DNA of 64,000 bases, from contig CAUJFI010000018.1 in the NCBI GenBank assembly GCA_963170125.1, positions 1-64,000 on the forward strand, written 5' to 3'. This document shows, in pieces, positions 7,708 to 60,003 of this stretch. The position numbers and the translations under genes are program-made. The notes under the pieces were generated by a model, which ran no database searches, was not told where the DNA came from, and saw only the letters and a program-made list of their open reading frames with translations. Position 1 is the first letter of the stretch. The number at the start of each line of letters is the position of its first letter. The stretch comes from Deinococcota bacterium. Its GTDB lineage: Bacteria; Deinococcota; Deinococci; Deinococcales; Trueperaceae.

Positions 7708-8418
7708 CTAGGTGCTCGCCTCGTCGAGGAACGCCTGCAACCGCTCCGTGTTGACGGTGATGGGCGCGCGCCTGCGGCGCACGGCCCCGTACTCGAGGAG
7801 CCGCGCCAGGCAGTGGCTGACGGTCTCACGCGTCGCGCCGATCATCTTCGCGAGGTCTTGCTGCGTGAGCGTCAGGTCGATGACCGTCCCGCGCTCGGAG
7901 ACCGTGCCGAAGTCCTTGGCGAGCCTGAGGAGCAGGTTGGCCAGGCGCCCCGGCGCATCGAAGGCGCCGACCTCGGCTTGCCACTGCTGCGCCTGCCACA
8001 GACGCGTGCTCATGACCTGGATGAACTTCATGGCGATGCGCGGCTGCTGCTGCAGTAGACGCTGGAACTCCATCTCGGGCATGACGATGAGCGTCGTGTC
8101 CATGACCGCCTCGGCCTGGTTCGGGCGCCTCTCGCTCTGCAGGAGGAGGAGCTCTCCGAAGATGTCGTACTTGCCGAGCAGCCCCAGGATCATCTCCTTG
8201 CCGTTCGGGAAGTACATGGAGATCTTCACCATGCCGTCGCGGATGAAGTAGAGGGCGTCCGCCGGGTCTTCCATGTGGTAGATGATCTCGCCCGCCGCGA
8301 AGCGCTTGTAGGGCGTGATCTTCGCCATCTGCTCGATCTCGTCCGGAGTGAGGTCCTCGAACAGCTCCGTGTTCTTGAGGTGCCAAACCAGACTCGGGTA
8401 CTGGCTCGCTTCCGTCAT
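7708..8418 (-). CDS. Crp/Fnr-family transcriptional regulator
   Basis: A 236-residue cytosolic regulator. Residues about 15-135 form a cyclic-nucleotide-binding beta barrel (FAAGEIIYHMEDPADALYFI, then FGELLLLQSERRPNQAEAVMD); about 150-225 form a Crp-type winged helix with LTQQDLAKMIGATRETVSHCLARLLEYG. There is no N-terminal Cys cluster, so it is not an Fe-S Fnr. The ligand is unknown; the binding loop lacks a clear RxS cAMP signature. The ATG has a GGGGAAG element just upstream. Not linked in an operon with its neighbours. Confidence 0.92.
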   Translation of the reverse strand: MTEASQYPSLVWHLKNTELFEDLTPDEIEQMAKITPYKRFAAGEIIYHMEDPADALYFIRDGMVKISMYFPNGKEMILGLLGKYDIFGELLLLQSERRPNQAEAVMDTTLIVMPEMEFQRLLQQQPRIAMKFIQVMSTRLWQAQQWQAEVGAFDAPGRLANLLLRLAKDFGTVSERGTVIDLTLTQQDLAKMIGATRETVSHCLARLLEYGAVRRRRAPITVNTERLQAFLDEAST

Positions 8419-8533
8419 CTTCTTCCCCTTCGAGCGTGACCGCGTAGCCCGGCACCAAAGCCTTGTGCCCCGCCACGCTCCTCACACGTCGTCGTTCCGG
8501 TTCTCACTATCGCACATGAGAAGCGCCGAACGC

Positions 8534-42185: not shown

Positions 42186-42262
<77 letters not shown>

Positions 42263-42279
42263 GGAAAGCACGTCAGGGA

Positions 42280-42355: not shown

Positions 42356-42676
42356 TCACGGCAGTACGTCCCGCAGCTTGACGCGGAGCCCCTCCTGGCC
42401 CTCCTGAACCTCGAGGATCCGGAACCCTCCGCCAAGTTTGAACCCCCGGAAGACCTTGGGCGCCGGAATCACAATCTGTGTGCCGGCAGCCTCGGTGACG
42501 ACCTTGGTCACGCGCTCGACATCCGACGCGCCCGTCGACGCCCATGGGCGCACCGTCACCTCGGGCCCCTGAGCTTGGGTGATTTCCCAGTGGATGTCCA
42601 GCCAGGCGATGAACTGTCCGATCCGCTTCTGGTCGTACTCGGTCTGTTCCTTCTTGGATAGTGGGCGCAAGCTCAT
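42356..42676 (-). CDS. Hypothetical protein beside tRNA, 106 residues
   Basis: I do not recognise the family. The product begins MSLRPLSKKEQTEYDQKR, has a helical N-terminal third, a strand-rich middle (PEVTVRPWASTG, TQIVIPAPKVFRGF) and ends EGLRVKLRDVLP. TAGAGT lies six bases before the ATG, so it should be a leaderless transcript. It is divergent from the 66-residue gene and lies just inside the putative prophage edge. Could be a regulator of the divergent pair, but no helix-turn-helix is evident. Confidence 0.7.
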   Translation of the reverse strand: MSLRPLSKKEQTEYDQKRIGQFIAWLDIHWEITQAQGPEVTVRPWASTGASDVERVTKVVTEAAGTQIVIPAPKVFRGFKLGGGFRILEVQEGQEGLRVKLRDVLP

Positions 42677-42727: not shown

Positions 42728-42928
42728 ATGACCAAGCCGCGTCAGCCCCCGGAGATCGCCCCAGAGGATGCCCCGTCGACCACCCTCCCCCGCCGCCCGG
42801 GTGAGCAGCCGACCGCCAGGGGCGTGCCGCCGCGACGCGAACGGTCAACGGTCGCACGCTGGGTGTCGTGGCGGACGCCGGAGGACGCCTACGATGATCG
42901 CGTGATGCCCATGGACGAGATGCCGTGA
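42728..42928 (+). CDS. Small charged protein, 66 residues
   Basis: No family recognised. The product begins MTKPRQPPEIAPEDAP, is rich in Pro, Arg, Glu and Asp, and ends DAYDDRVMPMDEMP; it is probably disordered, with one short helical stretch (STVARWVSWRTPEDAYDD). A near-perfect promoter seven bases before the ATG supports real expression. It converges on the methyltransferase gene with a six-base gap. Possible phage regulatory or anti-host factor, by position only. Confidence 0.6.
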   Translation: MTKPRQPPEIAPEDAPSTTLPRRPGEQPTARGVPPRRERSTVARWVSWRTPEDAYDDRVMPMDEMP

Positions 42929-42934
42929 AGGGGC

Positions 42935-44635
42935 CTATCGCGCGGCGGGTGCGTCGATGAGGCGCTGCTGATCGTTGACCTTCGCCGCCTTGGGAAGTCG
43001 CTTTGCTGGACGCGCATCCATGCTTACGTTCACGGAGCCCGCGGGAATCCACGGCCGCCCGCCACCCAACAGCTCTGCAACCGTCAACAGTTGAACGCGC
43101 GGAATGCAGTCACGGCCATACTCGTAGAACCCGAACCTGGCCGCCTCCTGCCGCATGCCGCTCGTGACCTCGTGCAGGCTCACGAAGACCCCCATGGCCG
43201 CACCCTCCCGACGAACCACGCTTTCGAGTTCACGAACCATGCCGGGGTTCAACTGCTGACCGCCCTTCACGCTCACGATCACCGTCTCGACCGACTCACC
43301 CCCGGGAGTCCGGAAGTAAATGCGCCCGTCAATGCCCGAGTCGCTGCCCTTCTTCCCCTTGCCCGTCGCTCCGGCGCCGTACGACTGTGCACCAATCAAG
43401 CCGTTCACCCAGAACTGGAACTGGTACGGGCCGTCCGGCTGCTCGTTGAACAACGCCTGCGCGGACGCTTTATCCACGGGTGTGCCAATCACCTCGAAGT
43501 CATTACCGCGCTCGAGACCATGGTCTACCAGGAGCCTGTTGCTTATCAGCCAGACTGCGAGGTGCGTGATGTCTATGCCGACCCAGCTGCGCCCGAGTTT
43601 CTCGGCTGCCGCTATGGCCGTACCGCAACCGCAGAACGGATCGAGCACCACATCGCCAAGATCTGAGCTTGCCTTGATGATTCGCTCCAGTAGGGCCACC
43701 GGCTTCTGCGTTGGGTAGCCTAGACGCTCGCGAGCTTGTGGACCAACTGGGTGAATGTCGTCCCACAAGTTGGTTACGGGCTTACCTTCGTTCTCGTCCA
43801 GAAAGCGCTTCAACGCAAGGCGCTTATTCTTGTCTTTGGGATAATGGATCCTGCCCTCTTCATGCAGGCGTTGCATCGTTTCGGCGGAGAACCTCCACCC
43901 CCTCGCTGGCGGCTGATACCCTTTCCACTCGTATGACCCATTAGGCCGGCCCGTCTTTGCGTTGATTGCCGACATGCCTCCTCCTTCCGGAGCGGACATG
44001 TCGCTTAGGCGGTACCGCCGACCCTTCTCGTCGACGTGACGATAGAACTTAGCGACGTAATCAGGATCTAGTGCCTGCCTTACCACATTGAACTTGCTGT
44101 TATAGCTCTTGGCATAAAACAGAATCGAGTCCGTAACGACGCCGAACTGCCTCCGCGCGTCGTTATGAGCACTCTGGCGTTTCCACGTAATCTCGCCCCT
44201 AAAGTGAACCGCGCCAAACAAGAGGTCTAACATCACCTTCAAGTAGTGGCCGGCGGTCGGGTCGCAGTGGAGGTACAAGGAGCCGGTGGCCTTGAGAACC
44301 CGGTGGAGCTGCACGAGGCGCGGCGCCATCATCACCAGGTAAGCGCTCATGCTGTTGTGCCCGAGTCGTCTGACGGTGAAATGCAGATACTCAGCGAGTT
44401 CACCATGCACGGTCACGAGATCCGCGAGGGCAGCAGCGGCCTCAAAGCCCCACGTCCATGTGTCGTTAAAGGCACGAATCTGCGCGCCGGGCCCGTCGCC
44501 GCTCTGCTCCCGAAAGATGACGTTGTAATCGGCGTTGCTGTTGAATGGTGGGTCGAGATAAATCAGGTCCACCGACTCGCTTGGCATCTCCCTAAGGACG
44601 GTGAGGTTATCACCGTAATACAGCGTTCTGGACAT
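42935..44635 (-). CDS. DNA methyltransferase fused to nuclease-like domain
   Basis: A 566-residue protein. The N-terminal part (1-390) is a beta-class amino-methyltransferase: motif IV LDPPF at 27-31 comes before motif [10 protein letters not shown] at 332-340, and the DPPF form suggests N6-adenine. The region [15 protein letters not shown] precedes motif I as usual. Residues about 400-525 look like a PD-(D/E)XK fold: SGIDGRIYF (Asp436) followed by [10 protein letters not shown] (Lys457), as in Mrr-like nucleases. So it may methylate and cut DNA in one chain, or guard phage DNA. GGGAGG precedes the ATG. GC falls locally around 43,950-44,200, which suggests transfer. Confidence 0.85.
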
Positions 44636-53706: not shown

Positions 53707-56700
53707 TTACCGTCCCCTCTTGATGCGTTCGGCGACGCGTGAGAGTTCGTCGAACAGGCTGCGGGCGTCCTTCACGCTCGAGCCTTCGATGACGACCTTG
53801 TCGATGGTGATGTTCCCGCCCCCGTTGGTGGAGGCAGCGCTACTCCCCCAACTGCCCTTCGGCAGCCGGTCCTGGAGCAGCCCTCTGATTCCTTGGAGTT
53901 CGGTGAGCTGCGCCCCCAAGTGCCGGAGTGGCGCCAGGAGGTCGCTGAAGTGATCCCTGGCGGGGCCGGTGAGGTCGGTGATGCGAGCACCACCCGTGCG
54001 CGCCTTTTTCGTCTCCTCGTCCTCGAGCAGGCCGAGTTCCTTGAGTTGCTCCCGCGTGACACGGCCGGATTCGATGAGGCCCTGCTTGAGCGCCTCCCAG
54101 CGCTTACGTTCGGCGTCCGTCAGGTTGCCGTCTTCCCACGCCTCCTTCCAGAAGTCGACCATGGCCTTGATCTGCGCCTGCACCTCCGGGGAGAGGATGA
54201 ACGCCTCGATGAGCTGGTCACGGATGAGGTTCTTGAAGCCCAGATCGGCGCTCTTGGCGTAATCGGCGGCGGCCAATGCGGTGGCCATGGTGTTGGCGAA
54301 GGTGCCGGCGAGGTTCACGGCTGCGTCGAACGCTTCCTCGTCCAGCTCGGCTTTCGTGGCGCCGAAGCTTCCGGCGATACCGCCTCGACTGACGCGACGC
54401 GTGTACTCGTGCGCGAACGCATCCAGCGTCTCACGCGCCAAGAGCGGCGTGCTCTTCACGGTCTCGTCGACTTGGTCCTGAATCTCCTGAAGACCATTGC
54501 CCAGGTCGCCCACCACGGCCGTGACCAGCTGGAAGGCCGCCGCCACGACCTTGCCAAGGCCGGGGATGCCCGTGAGGGCGCCGATAGCTTCGCCGGCCAC
54601 GCTGGCGATGCCACCGATGAGTTCCAGCACCTGCTTGCCGTCCAGGCCGCCATCCTCGGCGGCCGCGGCGATGCCCTCGATGGCGGTGGCGACGCCACTG
54701 ATGACCAGGGCGGTGCCTTCGAGCTTGTCGTCCGTCTCCGCGATCTTGTGCAGGCCCTCGGCGACATCCGCAGAGGCGCGCGCGAACACACCACCGAGGC
54801 CAGGGACGACGCTTGAGAGAGTGCGCAGGTCACCCGCGAACTTCCGCAGGCCGCTATCCTCGATGCCCTTCATCTTGAGGAGACCGGCGATGAGGCGGTC
54901 CAGTGCGGCTGCGAGTTCTTCTGCGCCGTCGGCACTCATGTCCATGTCATCGCGGTAGTTCTGTAGGATCTCGATGTTCTGCTCAAGCGGCCCGGGCATC
55001 TCACCGAGCGCATCCCGAGCGAACGCCATGGCGCCCTCGAACGCCTGCAGGCGCTCCGCGGCGTTCTTCTCGTTCTCATCCGCCCCAGCCAAGGCATGCC
55101 CAAGGTTCCGGAAGTCCTCCGCGAGCAACTGCACTGTGGGGTTGGAGAAGTCGACCTTGCCTTCCTCCACGAGCTTCTCGATGGCACCTTGCATGAGACG
55201 GAGTTGCTCGCGGGGGAGGTCGTAGGCGTCGCCGAGCAGCGCGGCCTTCTGCGCAGCGAAGTCCATGGCGGCGGCCAGCTCGCCGCGCACCTTGTTCACG
55301 AACGCGGTCTGCTCCTTGTCAATCTGCGCGAACGGACTCGGCATGGCCAGCTGGCGCGCCTCGGGGAGTACGGCGTAGGGGGTGACTGCCAGTTGCCTAG
55401 CTTGGGGCAAAGCGGCGACGGGCGTGGCTCCAGGTAGCTTTCGAGGCGTGAAGGGGCGCTCCAACTCTACCTTCATGGCATCCCAATGCTCGGCTTCTTG
55501 CCTGAAACGCCTGCGGTCCTCCTCGCTGTTCGCTGTCCAATATCGCTCCCATGCGGCGGACGAGAGCCGTTCAACGTCCCGGATACTCAGGTCGAACTCA
55601 GCAACGAGCGCCTGTGCTACTGCCGGGGGGAGTCCCACGGAGTCCCGGACGACCGCAGACACCGCGGCCTCGGGGATAGGTCGGGCGTTGACGGATACTC
55701 CAGCCGTTGGGGTGACGCTGAGGTCTCTTCGGCTGAAGTTCTCCCAATACTCGACTTCGGCGCGCTTCTGGGCAATCTGCTGGTCATAGCCGAGGATGTC
55801 CTCGGCGCTGGTTGCCTGCATGCGTTTCCGTTGCAGCTCTGTGATGTCGGCGTTCAGGTTGTTGAGGATGCCGATTACTTGCTCGGCTTGTTCCTCTACG
55901 ACCGGCGGCGACGGCACACCGGGCACTCCATCCTCGTCCGCGTTGGGCTTGTCTCCGATCGGGTCGAGCGGCACGTTGACCTTCGCCCAGAGCTCATTGA
56001 GTTCCCTGGCCGCCTGGTCCACGTCGGCTTGCTCGGCTGATACGGCGGTCGTCACGTCGGTAACAGCCACGGTTAACGCTTCGAGGCGAGCGTTGTGCGC
56101 CTCGATCAGGTCATGGACCATGCTCGGCATCAGCGCCAGGTCGTCAACGGAGGCGCCACCCGCCAGGCTTGCTATGCCCGTCGTGTTATTGAACCGCAGG
56201 GCCTTCACGACCTCCGACTCGCCCATGTTGAGAAGCTTCTCTGCTAACGCGCGTTCCTCGCGTTCGGTGTCGAAGACCACCTCGCCGCTAGGGGTGACTG
56301 CCTTGCCGGTAGCGGTGAACGTCTGAGCGAGAGTCTGCGCTTCTGCCAGGCGCGCCTGGGCTTCCGTGAGTCGCTGCTGGGCCTGCACGATTTCCTGCGC
56401 GTACTTGAAGGCGCGAGCGATGCGCAACGCTTGCGCCGCACCCACGTCGCCGGTCTTCTCCAGGTCGTCGCGCAGGTCCTTGAAGACGGTGCGTACGTCG
56501 CCGTCGACCTTGTCAATGACCTCATCTAAGGCGCTCTTAAGGCTCTTGGAGTCACCGCCGGCCAAGGCGGCGCTCGCCTTCTCGAGGCTCTTGTCGAGGC
56601 TGTCGGGCTTGCCGCTGAACGCATACGCGAGGCCGGCAACAACGCCGACCCCGAGCACGATCCACCCGGCCGGTCCCATGGCGAGGAGACCGGCAGCACG

Positions 56701-57891
56701 CAAGGCAACGAACGCCGTCCGCAACTGACCGGCCACGCGCACTGCCTGACCGAGGCCAACCAGCAGCGGCCCCAGGGCAGCAGCGAAGAGACCCGTGTTG
56801 ATGACGAGCTTCTGCGTGTCCTCATCCAAGTCCACGAACCACTGCACGGCCTTGCGGGCGCGGTCAACGAGGCCGTCCAGCGTCGGAAGCAGCGCTTCAC
56901 CGATCTGGTCGGTGACTTGCTCGAACTCCTTGCGCAACGCCATGACTCGGCCTTGCGTGGTGTCCGTCTGGCTCTCCATCATCTTGAAGAACCGACCGCC
57001 CTCGTTGGTCATGGTGGCGAACGCCAGCTCGATGTCTGCAAAGCCGACCTTGCCCTCGCTGACGAGGCCGCGGACCTGGTCCTCGGTGACGCCGAACTGC
57101 TTAGCGAGTTCCTGAATGATGGGAATCCCGCGGCCGCTCAACTGGTTGATGTCCTCCATGAACAAGCGGCCCTGGACCTTGGCCTTGCCGTAAATCTCGG
57201 CCAGTTCGTCAATGTTCATGTTCACGGCCGCCGAGATATCTCCGAGGCGCCCGAGGGTGGGAATGAGGTCTTGCGATTCCACGTTGAAGGCGGCTAGCAG
57301 CGTCGTGGCTTTCGTGAGGGATGGCCAACTGAAGGTCGTCTTCGTGTCGAACTCGTACAGCTCCTCGAACACCTGCTTGGCGTCGCCGGCGTCACCGATG
57401 AGGGTCTCTAGGCTCTTCTGGAAGACCTCCAACTGCATGGCGCTCTTCACGCCGGTGCCGCCGAGGATGGCCAGCGGCGCGGTGACGCCGGCGGACAGGA
57501 TGCCGCCGAAGGTCGTGAGGCGCCCCCCGAGCTTATCGAACCGCGTCTCGTGCGACGCCAGCTCGCCGTTCACGCTGACGAGTTCACGCTTGACATTCGT
57601 CAACTGCTCGACGGTCTGGCGGTACTCGCCGCTGTTCTTGTCCTGAGCGTCGGCGACGCGCCTCAACTCGGCTTCTTGCTTCTTCAGCTCGTCGCGGTAA
57701 TCAGATAGGGGCCGCAGCCCGGCTCGCGCTTCAGCTGCGACTCGGGAGAGGCCGGTCTCGAACGGCTTGAGGGCCTTCTCGCCTTCGCCGCCGGCCTTGC
57801 GGGCTTGGTCGATGATCTTGGCTAGCTCGGCCTTCAAGTTGCCGTCCTCGACGCGGAGGGCGATGAGGAGTTCCTCTAGGACTGTTGCCAT
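53707..57891 (-). CDS. Tail tape measure protein
   Basis: A 1,394-residue protein that sets tail length. The N-terminal coiled coil is followed by the tape-measure domain (about 130-350: LEVFQKSLETLIGDAGDAKQ, NVESQDLIPTLGRLGDISAA, GRGIPIIQELAKQFGV), hydrophobic segments near 380-425, Ala-rich helices and a C-terminal helical domain. At the rough rule of 0.15 nm per residue the tail would be about 200 nm. GGGAGGG six bases before the ATG. No lytic transglycosylase domain is seen. Confidence 0.95.
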   Translation of the reverse strand: MATVLEELLIALRVEDGNLKAELAKIIDQARKAGGEGEKALKPFETGLSRVAAEARAGLRPLSDYRDELKKQEAELRRVADAQDKNSGEYRQTVEQLTNVKRELVSVNGELASHETRFDKLGGRLTTFGGILSAGVTAPLAILGGTGVKSAMQLEVFQKSLETLIGDAGDAKQVFEELYEFDTKTTFSWPSLTKATTLLAAFNVESQDLIPTLGRLGDISAAVNMNIDELAEIYGKAKVQGRLFMEDINQLSGRGIPIIQELAKQFGVTEDQVRGLVSEGKVGFADIELAFATMTNEGGRFFKMMESQTDTTQGRVMALRKEFEQVTDQIGEALLPTLDGLVDRARKAVQWFVDLDEDTQKLVINTGLFAAALGPLLVGLGQAVRVAGQLRTAFVALRAAGLLAMGPAGWIVLGVGVVAGLAYAFSGKPDSLDKSLEKASAALAGGDSKSLKSALDEVIDKVDGDVRTVFKDLRDDLEKTGDVGAAQALRIARAFKYAQEIVQAQQRLTEAQARLAEAQTLAQTFTATGKAVTPSGEVVFDTEREERALAEKLLNMGESEVVKALRFNNTTGIASLAGGASVDDLALMPSMVHDLIEAHNARLEALTVAVTDVTTAVSAEQADVDQAARELNELWAKVNVPLDPIGDKPNADEDGVPGVPSPPVVEEQAEQVIGILNNLNADITELQRKRMQATSAEDILGYDQQIAQKRAEVEYWENFSRRDLSVTPTAGVSVNARPIPEAAVSAVVRDSVGLPPAVAQALVAEFDLSIRDVERLSSAAWERYWTANSEEDRRRFRQEAEHWDAMKVELERPFTPRKLPGATPVAALPQARQLAVTPYAVLPEARQLAMPSPFAQIDKEQTAFVNKVRGELAAAMDFAAQKAALLGDAYDLPREQLRLMQGAIEKLVEEGKVDFSNPTVQLLAEDFRNLGHALAGADENEKNAAERLQAFEGAMAFARDALGEMPGPLEQNIEILQNYRDDMDMSADGAEELAAALDRLIAGLLKMKGIEDSGLRKFAGDLRTLSSVVPGLGGVFARASADVAEGLHKIAETDDKLEGTALVISGVATAIEGIAAAAEDGGLDGKQVLELIGGIASVAGEAIGALTGIPGLGKVVAAAFQLVTAVVGDLGNGLQEIQDQVDETVKSTPLLARETLDAFAHEYTRRVSRGGIAGSFGATKAELDEEAFDAAVNLAGTFANTMATALAAADYAKSADLGFKNLIRDQLIEAFILSPEVQAQIKAMVDFWKEAWEDGNLTDAERKRWEALKQGLIESGRVTREQLKELGLLEDEETKKARTGGARITDLTGPARDHFSDLLAPLRHLGAQLTELQGIRGLLQDRLPKGSWGSSAASTNGGGNITIDKVVIEGSSVKDARSLFDELSRVAERIKRGR

Positions 57892-57934
57892 GGTCTGCCC
57901 TCCCTCGCGTGAGGTTCTCGTGAGACCGAGCGGC

Positions 57935-57940
57935 TATGCT
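57935..57940 (+). promoter_or_regulatory. -10 box of putative moron (TATGCT)
   Basis: TATGCT six bases before the ATG at 57947, on the strand opposite to the phage tail operon; same leaderless pattern as host genes. Confidence 0.6.
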
Positions 57941-57946
57941 CGGCGC

Positions 57947-58348
57947 ATGAAGAGACTGATGGGGGTACTTCTCGTGGCGGTGGCCGGATCGTGCAGCCTC
58001 GCGCAGACGATGTTGGTTCCAGCTACGGCCCTGGAATTCGCCCTAGATATTCCGTTGCCGCCCGACTCATACCGGGCGTTCTTGCCGTTCTGCGACGGTA
58101 GTGAGGACGCGCCGAGTCCATCCGACCGCTGCTACTACCTAGGTGCAAGCCTCGCCGACTCGCTCACCCTCACTAGCGGATGGTTTCGGGTCAACGGCTA
58201 CACCCTGGCGTTGGAGGAACCGAGCAGCGACGGTAGCGTTACACAGGCATGGCGGCGGGACCGCGCAGACGGCACGCCGGAAACTCGCCTACGGTTGCTG
58301 TACACCCACGTGAACGGTGAAGTGCTGCTGATCGTCAAGGTGTTCTAA
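57947..58348 (+). CDS. Putative moron: secreted protein on opposite strand
   Basis: A 133-residue product with a signal sequence (KRLMGVLLVAVAGSCSLAQT), possibly lipidated at Cys16 though the lipobox (AGSC) is imperfect. The mature part has a Cys pair (in FLPFCDGSEDAPSPSDRCYY) and a beta-rich fold (LRLLYTHVNGEVLLIVKVF). It sits alone on the plus strand between the tail chaperone and tape measure genes, ending four bases inside the chaperone extension, with its own leaderless promoter. Such genes often alter the lysogen's surface or block superinfection. Function unknown. Confidence 0.75.
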   Translation: MKRLMGVLLVAVAGSCSLAQTMLVPATALEFALDIPLPPDSYRAFLPFCDGSEDAPSPSDRCYYLGASLADSLTLTSGWFRVNGYTLALEEPSSDGSVTQAWRRDRADGTPETRLRLLYTHVNGEVLLIVKVF

Positions 58349-58785
58349 GCTTCGAATCCTGCGAGTGTGAGTTCGTCGAGCATGTCCTGACTGACGAGTC
58401 CAAGAGTTAGTGCGGCCCTGACGCTCGCGTCCACTGCGCGGTTCATGAACACGCGCGGCTTACCTGCGTCCAGCTGCGCCCAGGTGGGGATGAATGCCTC
58501 GATGCCGCCCTCGTAACCACCCATGGTCTTGGCAATCATGAACGCCGTCTGCGCGTGCGGCCAGACGCGTTGGAACTCGATGCGGGAGCGTTCTCGCAGG
58601 AGGCTCCAGACGGTCCGAACACTCGTTCGAGCGAACACTTCTGGCGTGAATCCCGGGTAGGTGCTCAGGACGGTTGCTTGGATGGCGCCCCAGTCAACCG
58701 GCTCTCGATCCCCGCCACCGCTACCTTCGCTGCCATCAACATCCGTTCCCGCCTCGCCACCGTCGCCGTCAGGAACGCCTTCGTG
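58345..58785 (-). CDS. Tail assembly chaperone GT extension (-1 frame)
   Basis: An open -1 frame with no good start of its own, read by frameshift from the G gene at the slippery site 58785-58791. The 146 codons begin with a Gly/Asp/Glu-rich linker and then VDWGAIQATVLSTYPGFTPE, the DW...YPG pattern typical of the T part of gpGT-like chaperones. The fused product would have 238 residues. It helps the tape measure assemble with tail tube subunits. A GTG at 58638 could start only a fragment. Confidence 0.8.
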   Translation of the reverse strand, partial: HEGVPDGDGGEAGTDVDGSEGSGGGDREPVDWGAIQATVLSTYPGFTPEVFARTSVRTVWSLLRERSRIEFQRVWPHAQTAFMIAKTMGGYEGGIEAFIPTWAQLDAGKPRVFMNRAVDASVRAALTLGLVSQDMLDELTLAGFEA

Positions 58786-59060
58786 AAAGGGGCCAGCAGG
58801 GTGTTCACGCCCTCCTCAAACGCCGTCATGTCGCCCAGCGGCTCACTCAGCAGGGCATCGGCAGTGACCGCCTCGCCGAGCCGGTGCCGGATGAGGATGG
58901 CCAGCGCCTCAAGGTTCTGCCGTAAGCCGCTGGCGGGCGGGTTCATGGTGAGGGCCTCGAGTTCGATGGTCTCACCGACCGTGCCGAAGTCGTAGACGGG
59001 GATGGTCCTGCCGAGGAGTTCAACGGTGCCCGTGGCGGGCAATTGAACGGGGGTCTTCAC
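58665..59060 (-). CDS. Tail assembly chaperone G
   Basis: A 131-residue, mostly helical protein (LRQNLEALAILIRHRL, TAFEEGVNTLLAPFTKAFL) in the gpG position between the tail tube and tape measure genes. The codons for Pro91-Phe92 form the slippery heptamer C CCT TTC, where ribosomes can slip into the -1 frame to make the longer GT product. ATG overlaps the previous stop by four bases. Confidence 0.82.
   Translation of the reverse strand: MKTPVQLPATGTVELLGRTIPVYDFGTVGETIELEALTMNPPASGLRQNLEALAILIRHRLGEAVTADALLSEPLGDMTAFEEGVNTLLAPFTKAFLTATVARRERMLMAAKVAVAGIESRLTGAPSKQPS
58785..58791 (-). promoter_or_regulatory. -1 ribosomal frameshift site (CCCTTTC)
   Basis: On the minus strand, C CCT TTC lies in the X XXY YYZ register of the G frame. 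After slippage the next codon is CAC at 58785, and the -1 frame stays open for 146 codons. Confidence 0.75.
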
Positions 59061-59319: not shown

Positions 59320-60003
59320 TCAGGCCCAGGTGTAGAGCTCGGTGGCGGCGAACGTGAAGCTGCCTTCCGCCACGCCCGACTCGTTCAGGGTGACGTTCAA
59401 TTGGTTGATGAACCCCAAGTACCCCCAGGTCTTCTTGGTAACGCCGTCGATGGCGGTGGCTTCGATCTTGAGCCACACGAGCTCGTCGGCGTTGTACGCC
59501 TCCTCGATGGCCTCGAAGCCGTCGTCGTCCGTGACAAGGTTACTCGTCCAGGAGATGCTGACGGTTCGACCTTCGGTGATCTGGTCGGCGATGGCGCTCG
59601 CGACCGTGTCGAAGTCGGTGATGGTCTGCGTGCCGCGGCTGTCGTTGATGTTGATCGCCTGCTTGGGCCTACCCACCGACACGGGCGTGCCGGGCGTGCT
59701 GCCCGTCGCTGTGTACGAGTAACTGACCGTGATGGCGTCACTGGCAGCGAGCACCGACGAGCCGGACAACGCGACGACGTGCCGGTATGCGTCGACGATG
59801 GCGATGACGTAGTCCGTGTCCAGCACGGCGGGGGTGACGCCCTTCTTGACGACGATAGAGGTTGCGCCAGGGTGCTGCAGGCGCGCTGTGCCGTTGGCAT
59901 CGAGGGTGTGCGCCTCGTCGTTGATGTTGACCGTGCCGCCGGCTGCGGCGTTGGCGATGCTGAGCTTCACGCCGCTGCGGCGAATGAGCTTCTGAACGGA
60001 CAT
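59320..60003 (-). CDS. Major tail tube protein
   Basis: A 227-residue beta-rich protein. N-terminal tube fold (LIRRSGVKLSIANAAAGGTV) with an inserted domain, and a C-terminal part matching siphovirus tail proteins (RTVSISWTSNLVTDDDGFE, WGYLGFINQLNVTLNESGVA). GGAGG precedes the ATG, and a hairpin lies just upstream. Its place before the G/GT genes supports the call. Confidence 0.85.
   Translation of the reverse strand: MSVQKLIRRSGVKLSIANAAAGGTVNINDEAHTLDANGTARLQHPGATSIVVKKGVTPAVLDTDYVIAIVDAYRHVVALSGSSVLAASDAITVSYSYTATGSTPGTPVSVGRPKQAININDSRGTQTITDFDTVASAIADQITEGRTVSISWTSNLVTDDDGFEAIEEAYNADELVWLKIEATAIDGVTKKTWGYLGFINQLNVTLNESGVAEGSFTFAATELYTWA

Follow-up and report, generated by a model that had tools for sequence, protein, structure and literature searches.

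Between the tail chaperone and tape measure genes of a Deinococcota prophage lies a single gene on the plus strand, an ORF running from 57947 to 58348 (134 codons including the stop, giving a product of 133 aa), in the 64,000 nt stretch of DNA analysed here (the window), which corresponds to bases 1-64000 of a contig of 106,846 bases in a genome of 3.1 Mb. The initial annotation had placed a plus-strand gene at 57892-58348; the gene is real, with the span first given to it also taking in the 55 bp that separate its ATG from the ATG of the tape measure gene (53707-57891, minus strand), a gap that holds the ribosome site of the tape measure gene (GGGAGGG, 57898-57904). At its other end the stop codon of the gene overlaps the stop codon of a minus-strand ORF (58345-58638) by 4 bp, and the 453 bp between chaperone and tape measure genes are thus occupied by it. 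All other called genes from approximately 45 to 63.7 kb are on the minus strand, this being the sole plus-strand gene called in that range.

The neighbouring genes have matches to families of major tail (59320-60003, minus strand), tail terminator, neck, distal tail, capsid and tape measure proteins, the last of these being strong. The two ORFs in the chaperone position, 58665-59060 (the first, G-like) and 58345-58638 (the second), both on the minus strand, have no family match and have been given their role by position. The second is open in the -1 frame across the end of the first, and because the frames of the two overlap in this way it is suggested that 58345-59060 encodes a frameshifted G/GT chaperone pair, with the second ORF probably read by a -1 frameshift; a slippery site was not identified in this region. 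The position originally claimed for the plus-strand gene, between chaperone and tape measure, is confirmed.

That the operon belongs to a prophage is confirmed by a perfect 50-bp repeat, of which attL (42215-42264) overlaps a tRNA-Ala gene (42186-42261) and contains its 3' part whilst attR lies outside the window at 77184-77233 of the contig, by an integrase gene just inside the right end (75817-77163) and by an S24-type repressor gene that adjoins the integrase gene. From the placement of these elements the prophage is approximately 35 kb long, and it looks intact. Known phages are only distantly related to it (major capsid protein identity of about 40% or less, terminase about 51%) and in IMG/VR neither the capsid nor the tape measure pattern brought up a close relative. 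Close to the left end a minus-strand gene (42935-44635) encodes a DNA methyltransferase that ends in an Mrr-like nuclease domain, possibly a single-chain restriction-modification system or a cargo gene. Beyond the window, between the repressor and integrase genes, there is a second gene with a signal peptide (75233-75769 of the contig, plus strand, 178 aa), for the product of which no relative was found among 111 genomes of the phylum and no family is known; it is a candidate for a second moron expressed in lysogeny.

Upstream of the plus-strand ORF a -10 element, TATGCT (57935-57940), ends exactly 6 nt before the ATG, and there is no Shine-Dalgarno sequence; the promoter is of leaderless type. 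A TANNNT motif about 12 bp upstream has been described as the mark of leaderless genes, the share of which is highest in Deinococcus-Thermus (PMC3160421). In the prophage TAnnnT is found at exactly 6 nt from only 2 of 808 ATGs, and the only called prophage genes with a spacing of 6-7 nt are the gene itself and two small ORFs by attL (42356-42676, minus strand, and 42728-42928, plus strand, at 6 and 7 nt respectively). Among 125 of the host's own ORFs the motif peaks at 6 and 7 nt before the start (9 and 13 cases, against about 3 at other distances), and of 21 relatives of the gene 16 show a distance of exactly 6 nt and one a distance of 7 nt. The leaderless host-type promoter of the initial annotation is supported by its -10 element, and as the spacing is common to relatives and host ORFs alike the gene has carried a host-lineage expression signal along with it; the presence of this spacing in 16 of the 21 relatives supports expression that is independent of the tail operon. 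No good -35 match was found upstream, nor was an intrinsic terminator found after the gene, where there is no terminator-like site and no excess folding at the 3' end. A terminator of its own is a usual, not a universal, trait of a moron. An imperfect 23-bp inverted repeat at 74397-74459 of the contig, between divergent early genes and beside the repressor gene, is likely to be an operator; it contains CTATGCT, which resembles the -10 element described above, and binding of the repressor at the promoter of the plus-strand gene is conceivable.

The initial annotation recognised no relatives of the mature protein, a statement that can no longer be maintained, as chromosomes of the same phylum encode proteins that are clearly related to it, and the host's own chromosome probably has a distant paralogue. 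When 101 related genomes were searched with this one protein as the query, homologues that are colinear with it and 156-160 aa long came up in the chromosomes of a different family within the order of the host (E about 1e-5 per genome, 34-35% identity); two of these genomes are GenBank entries labelled Thermaceae MAGs. When a profile was built from 12 relatives, leaving out the window sequence, and run against the 1734 six-frame segments of the contig, the ORF was the sole significant match (E 7.8e-9, the next being 1.9), which rules out a chance ORF. Since a profile that had not seen the window picks out this ORF alone, we regard it as coding. Scans of Pfam, NCBIfam, PHROGs and PADLOC gave no match for the protein or its family, tblastn of the protein against 50,697 phage records gave no match, a core-family protein gave only non-significant matches to the phage records, and IMG/VR, scanned with the protein, the A2 alignment, the tape measure protein and the major capsid protein, had no match either.

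The product belongs by profile similarity, by both of its cysteines and by its signal peptide to a two-cysteine family of secreted Deinococcota proteins. This branch is found in most genomes of three genera of one family (g19, g23 and g28 of f3) and otherwise only in G021, the prophage of the window and G087; the two-cysteine form is vertically conserved in one family of the phylum, and the distribution as a whole fits occasional transfer by phages. A wider profile (A3), made from the two-cysteine relatives and five further cysteine-free sequences, has matches in 85 of 111 genomes of the phylum, with one copy or two in each; these include all five genomes of the host genus, and there is a copy in the host chromosome (contig C159, 38005-38433). 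The cysteine-free members constitute a secreted family of about 140 aa that is present in most Deinococcota genomes, mostly with a leaderless -10 element, and has no name in Pfam or NCBIfam. The two-cysteine subfamily is probably a branch of this wider family: hhalign of the two-cysteine against the core branch gave a probability of 95.7%, over 36 columns only, and a profile of the core branch alone matches the ORF at E 4e-4, mostly through the first motif and the signal peptide; the confidence of an AF2 model of the product also rose when core-family sequences were added, as given below. A tree places the prophage copy inside the two-cysteine clade (99/98) and apart from the host's chromosomal copy, which rejects a recent capture of the latter; its end branch is 1.23 long and its exact place among the long branches is unsure. 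What the prophage carries is its own version of a family of secreted proteins that is native to the phylum. The neighbours of the chromosomal members, which include genes for a P-type ATPase, hemC, a CLC channel and an enoyl-CoA hydratase, give no consistent functional clue. One two-cysteine member, that of G087 (C218, 31250-31669; L045), is situated about 0.4 kb from a phage integrase gene in a stretch of lower GC with a tRNA-Lys.

The signal peptide that had been proposed is evident in the sequence (57947-58003, MKRLMGVLLVAVAGSCSLA); read by eye and with the alignments of the relatives it is probably of type I, with the likely cut between A19 and Q20. It contains VAGSC, ending at C16, which fits a loose lipobox, but a lipoprotein was set aside as the relatives are without a lipobox and have type I sites. 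Following the signal peptide, itself conserved, the invariant or near-invariant positions of the alignment are VPVTALxL, a proline, a glycine, C49, C62-Y63, D71, E90, Q100 and W102. Both Cys49 and Cys62 are present in every member of the two-cysteine subfamily, that of G021 included, and probably form a disulfide in the prophage product. An AF2 model was poor at first (pLDDT 66.7) and rose to 85.9 when core-family sequences were added; the best Foldseek match to it has an E value of 4.7e-3 and a TM score of 0.41, with none below 1e-3, and a sequence search of the PDB gave no match.

One refuting condition attached to the original proposal of a moron was that the gene should prove a fixed part of the tail module in all related phages; in the related phages and prophages examined it is absent at this junction, a result in favour of the moron. 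In the nearest prophage found (G023), which has a major capsid protein of 43% identity and scaffold and neck genes in common with the one described here, the chaperone ORF and the tape measure ORF share 4 bp, with no gene between; in phiSASD1 and Jace the two genes abut; and such a gene is likewise missing from the junction in three further tail modules (L038, L042 and L043). In the contractile-tailed AP45 and D6E the late genes around the tape measure gene all lie on one strand. It is therefore well supported that the gene is a moron and not a tail part, given its own leaderless -10 element, its opposite strand, its absence at the junction in relatives and its secreted product.

What the moron does is far less certain, and we consider the most likely role, with a probability of roughly 0.45, to be that of an envelope protein made in lysogens for superinfection exclusion. 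The gene would have been inserted in reverse orientation at the chaperone/tape measure junction of the prophage, from where host RNA polymerase would read it from the leaderless-type -10 element apart from the silent tail operon; the product would be exported, lose its signal peptide and reside in the cell envelope, folded into a small domain that is rich in beta structure and probably has a C49-C62 disulfide, and there it may hinder the DNA entry of related siphophages, perhaps through competition with the host's own family member. Exclusion is favoured because of the analogy with the moron of HK97 and because it is from such a function that a repressed prophage gains most. There are, however, several points against it: no known exclusion protein and no PADLOC model is homologous in sequence to the product, most members of its family are ordinary chromosomal genes so that exclusion cannot be the business of the whole family, it is of a secreted soluble type whereas the HK97 protein is predicted to be in the inner membrane, the fold matches are weak (none with E below 1e-3, TM about 0.4), and the gene shows neither a -35 match nor a terminator. 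A bolder version, which we think improbable, is that the chromosomal family is an envelope factor used by Deinococcota phages for the passage of their DNA and that the prophage copy is a diverged, disulfide-locked decoy, in which case, if true, the prophage would exclude superinfecting phages through molecular mimicry of a host factor that lets them in. DcrB, with which the model has some similarity of fold, is linked to the DNA entry of coliphages; as the match is not significant it was rejected as functional evidence and serves this speculation only.

The same secreted product could instead serve the host in lysogenic conversion, as a second or variant copy that does what the chromosomal members may do in the envelope or under stress. 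We hold this to be the main rival, though less likely than exclusion: a family that is native to the phylum, in the 85 genomes counted above, and a two-cysteine form kept vertically in one family both speak for a benefit to the host, but the chromosomal members lack consistent gene neighbours and the strong divergence of the prophage copy, with its end branch of 1.23, agrees no less well with a role specific to the phage. The presence of the moron in one genome only and its patchy distribution might also be expected of a mere passenger, an inserted gene of the host lineage with weak expression or none, and without a role under selection in the prophage; this is unlikely, however, as the ORF is intact and its cysteines, core motif and -10 spacing have been kept at about 30% identity to relatives, and features kept at such a distance imply long selection somewhere. 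Finally, adjoining the tape measure gene as it does, the gene might encode a virion or assembly part from the other strand, or its plus-strand transcript, which with no terminator to end it would extend in antisense into the genes for chaperone and tail proteins, might regulate the tail operon and outweigh the protein. Both are very improbable in view of the signal peptide, the homology to secreted chromosomal proteins and the absence of the gene from related tail modules.

The initial interpretation of the gene is supported in part. The element is ordinary in kind, a moron; its interesting cargo is a branch, carried by a phage, of a secreted family that is specific to the phylum and has no name, and it comes with the leaderless promoter of that family. 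It provides a handle on a secreted family that is widespread in Deinococcus-Thermus and has no Pfam or NCBIfam entry, and it indicates that temperate phages of the phylum move at least one branch of this family. Prophage-encoded exclusion in the phylum appears to have been little studied, and a direct test of exclusion now becomes possible.

Among the closest known likenesses are the chromosomal two-cysteine proteins (for example those of G061, G044, G040 and G055), with which the moron product has in common the signal peptide, Cys49 and Cys62, a leaderless -10 element at 6 nt and the pattern VPVTALxL...P...Y/T.R..G..C, C-Y, G-Y, Q.W; it differs from them in being phage-borne, 20-31% identical, shorter in the loop between the cysteines, and encoded on the opposite strand inside a tail operon. 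Proteins of Mog1p/PsbP-like fold (EagT6, DcrB, LpqN, MTC28, PsbP and the N-domain of BamC), several of them envelope proteins, recur as weak matches to the model (E 4.7e-3 to 0.13, TM about 0.34-0.41) and have no sequence relation to the product; the resemblance to PsbP, DcrB, EagT6 and LpqN is compatible with an envelope binding protein and establishes nothing. Exclusion proteins that are expressed from prophages and located in the envelope are known from TP-J34 (Ltp), Tuc2009 (Sie2009) and P22 (SieA) (PMC10883804, PMC3952083), these being membrane-anchored or lipoproteins with no sequence relation to the moron product found.

In HK97 a "moron product", gp15, is encoded between the frameshifted tail protein (ending at 8145) and the tape measure gene (starting at 8435), and there is also a "reverse moron" elsewhere in the genome. 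This gp15 blocks DNA injection by related phages, which escape by exchange of tail tube or tape measure (PMC10883804). Its gene shares the strand of the tail genes, is followed by an annotated terminator and encodes a predicted inner-membrane protein, whereas the moron described here is on the opposite strand, has no terminator that was found and encodes a secreted protein, and no sequence relation between the two products was seen, there being no match in the phage database. They are nevertheless alike in lying at the same junction of chaperone and tape measure genes, in having a product directed to the envelope and in being carried by a temperate siphophage, so that a moron with a host-type leaderless expression signal occupies the same site in the tail operon as the exclusion gene of HK97.
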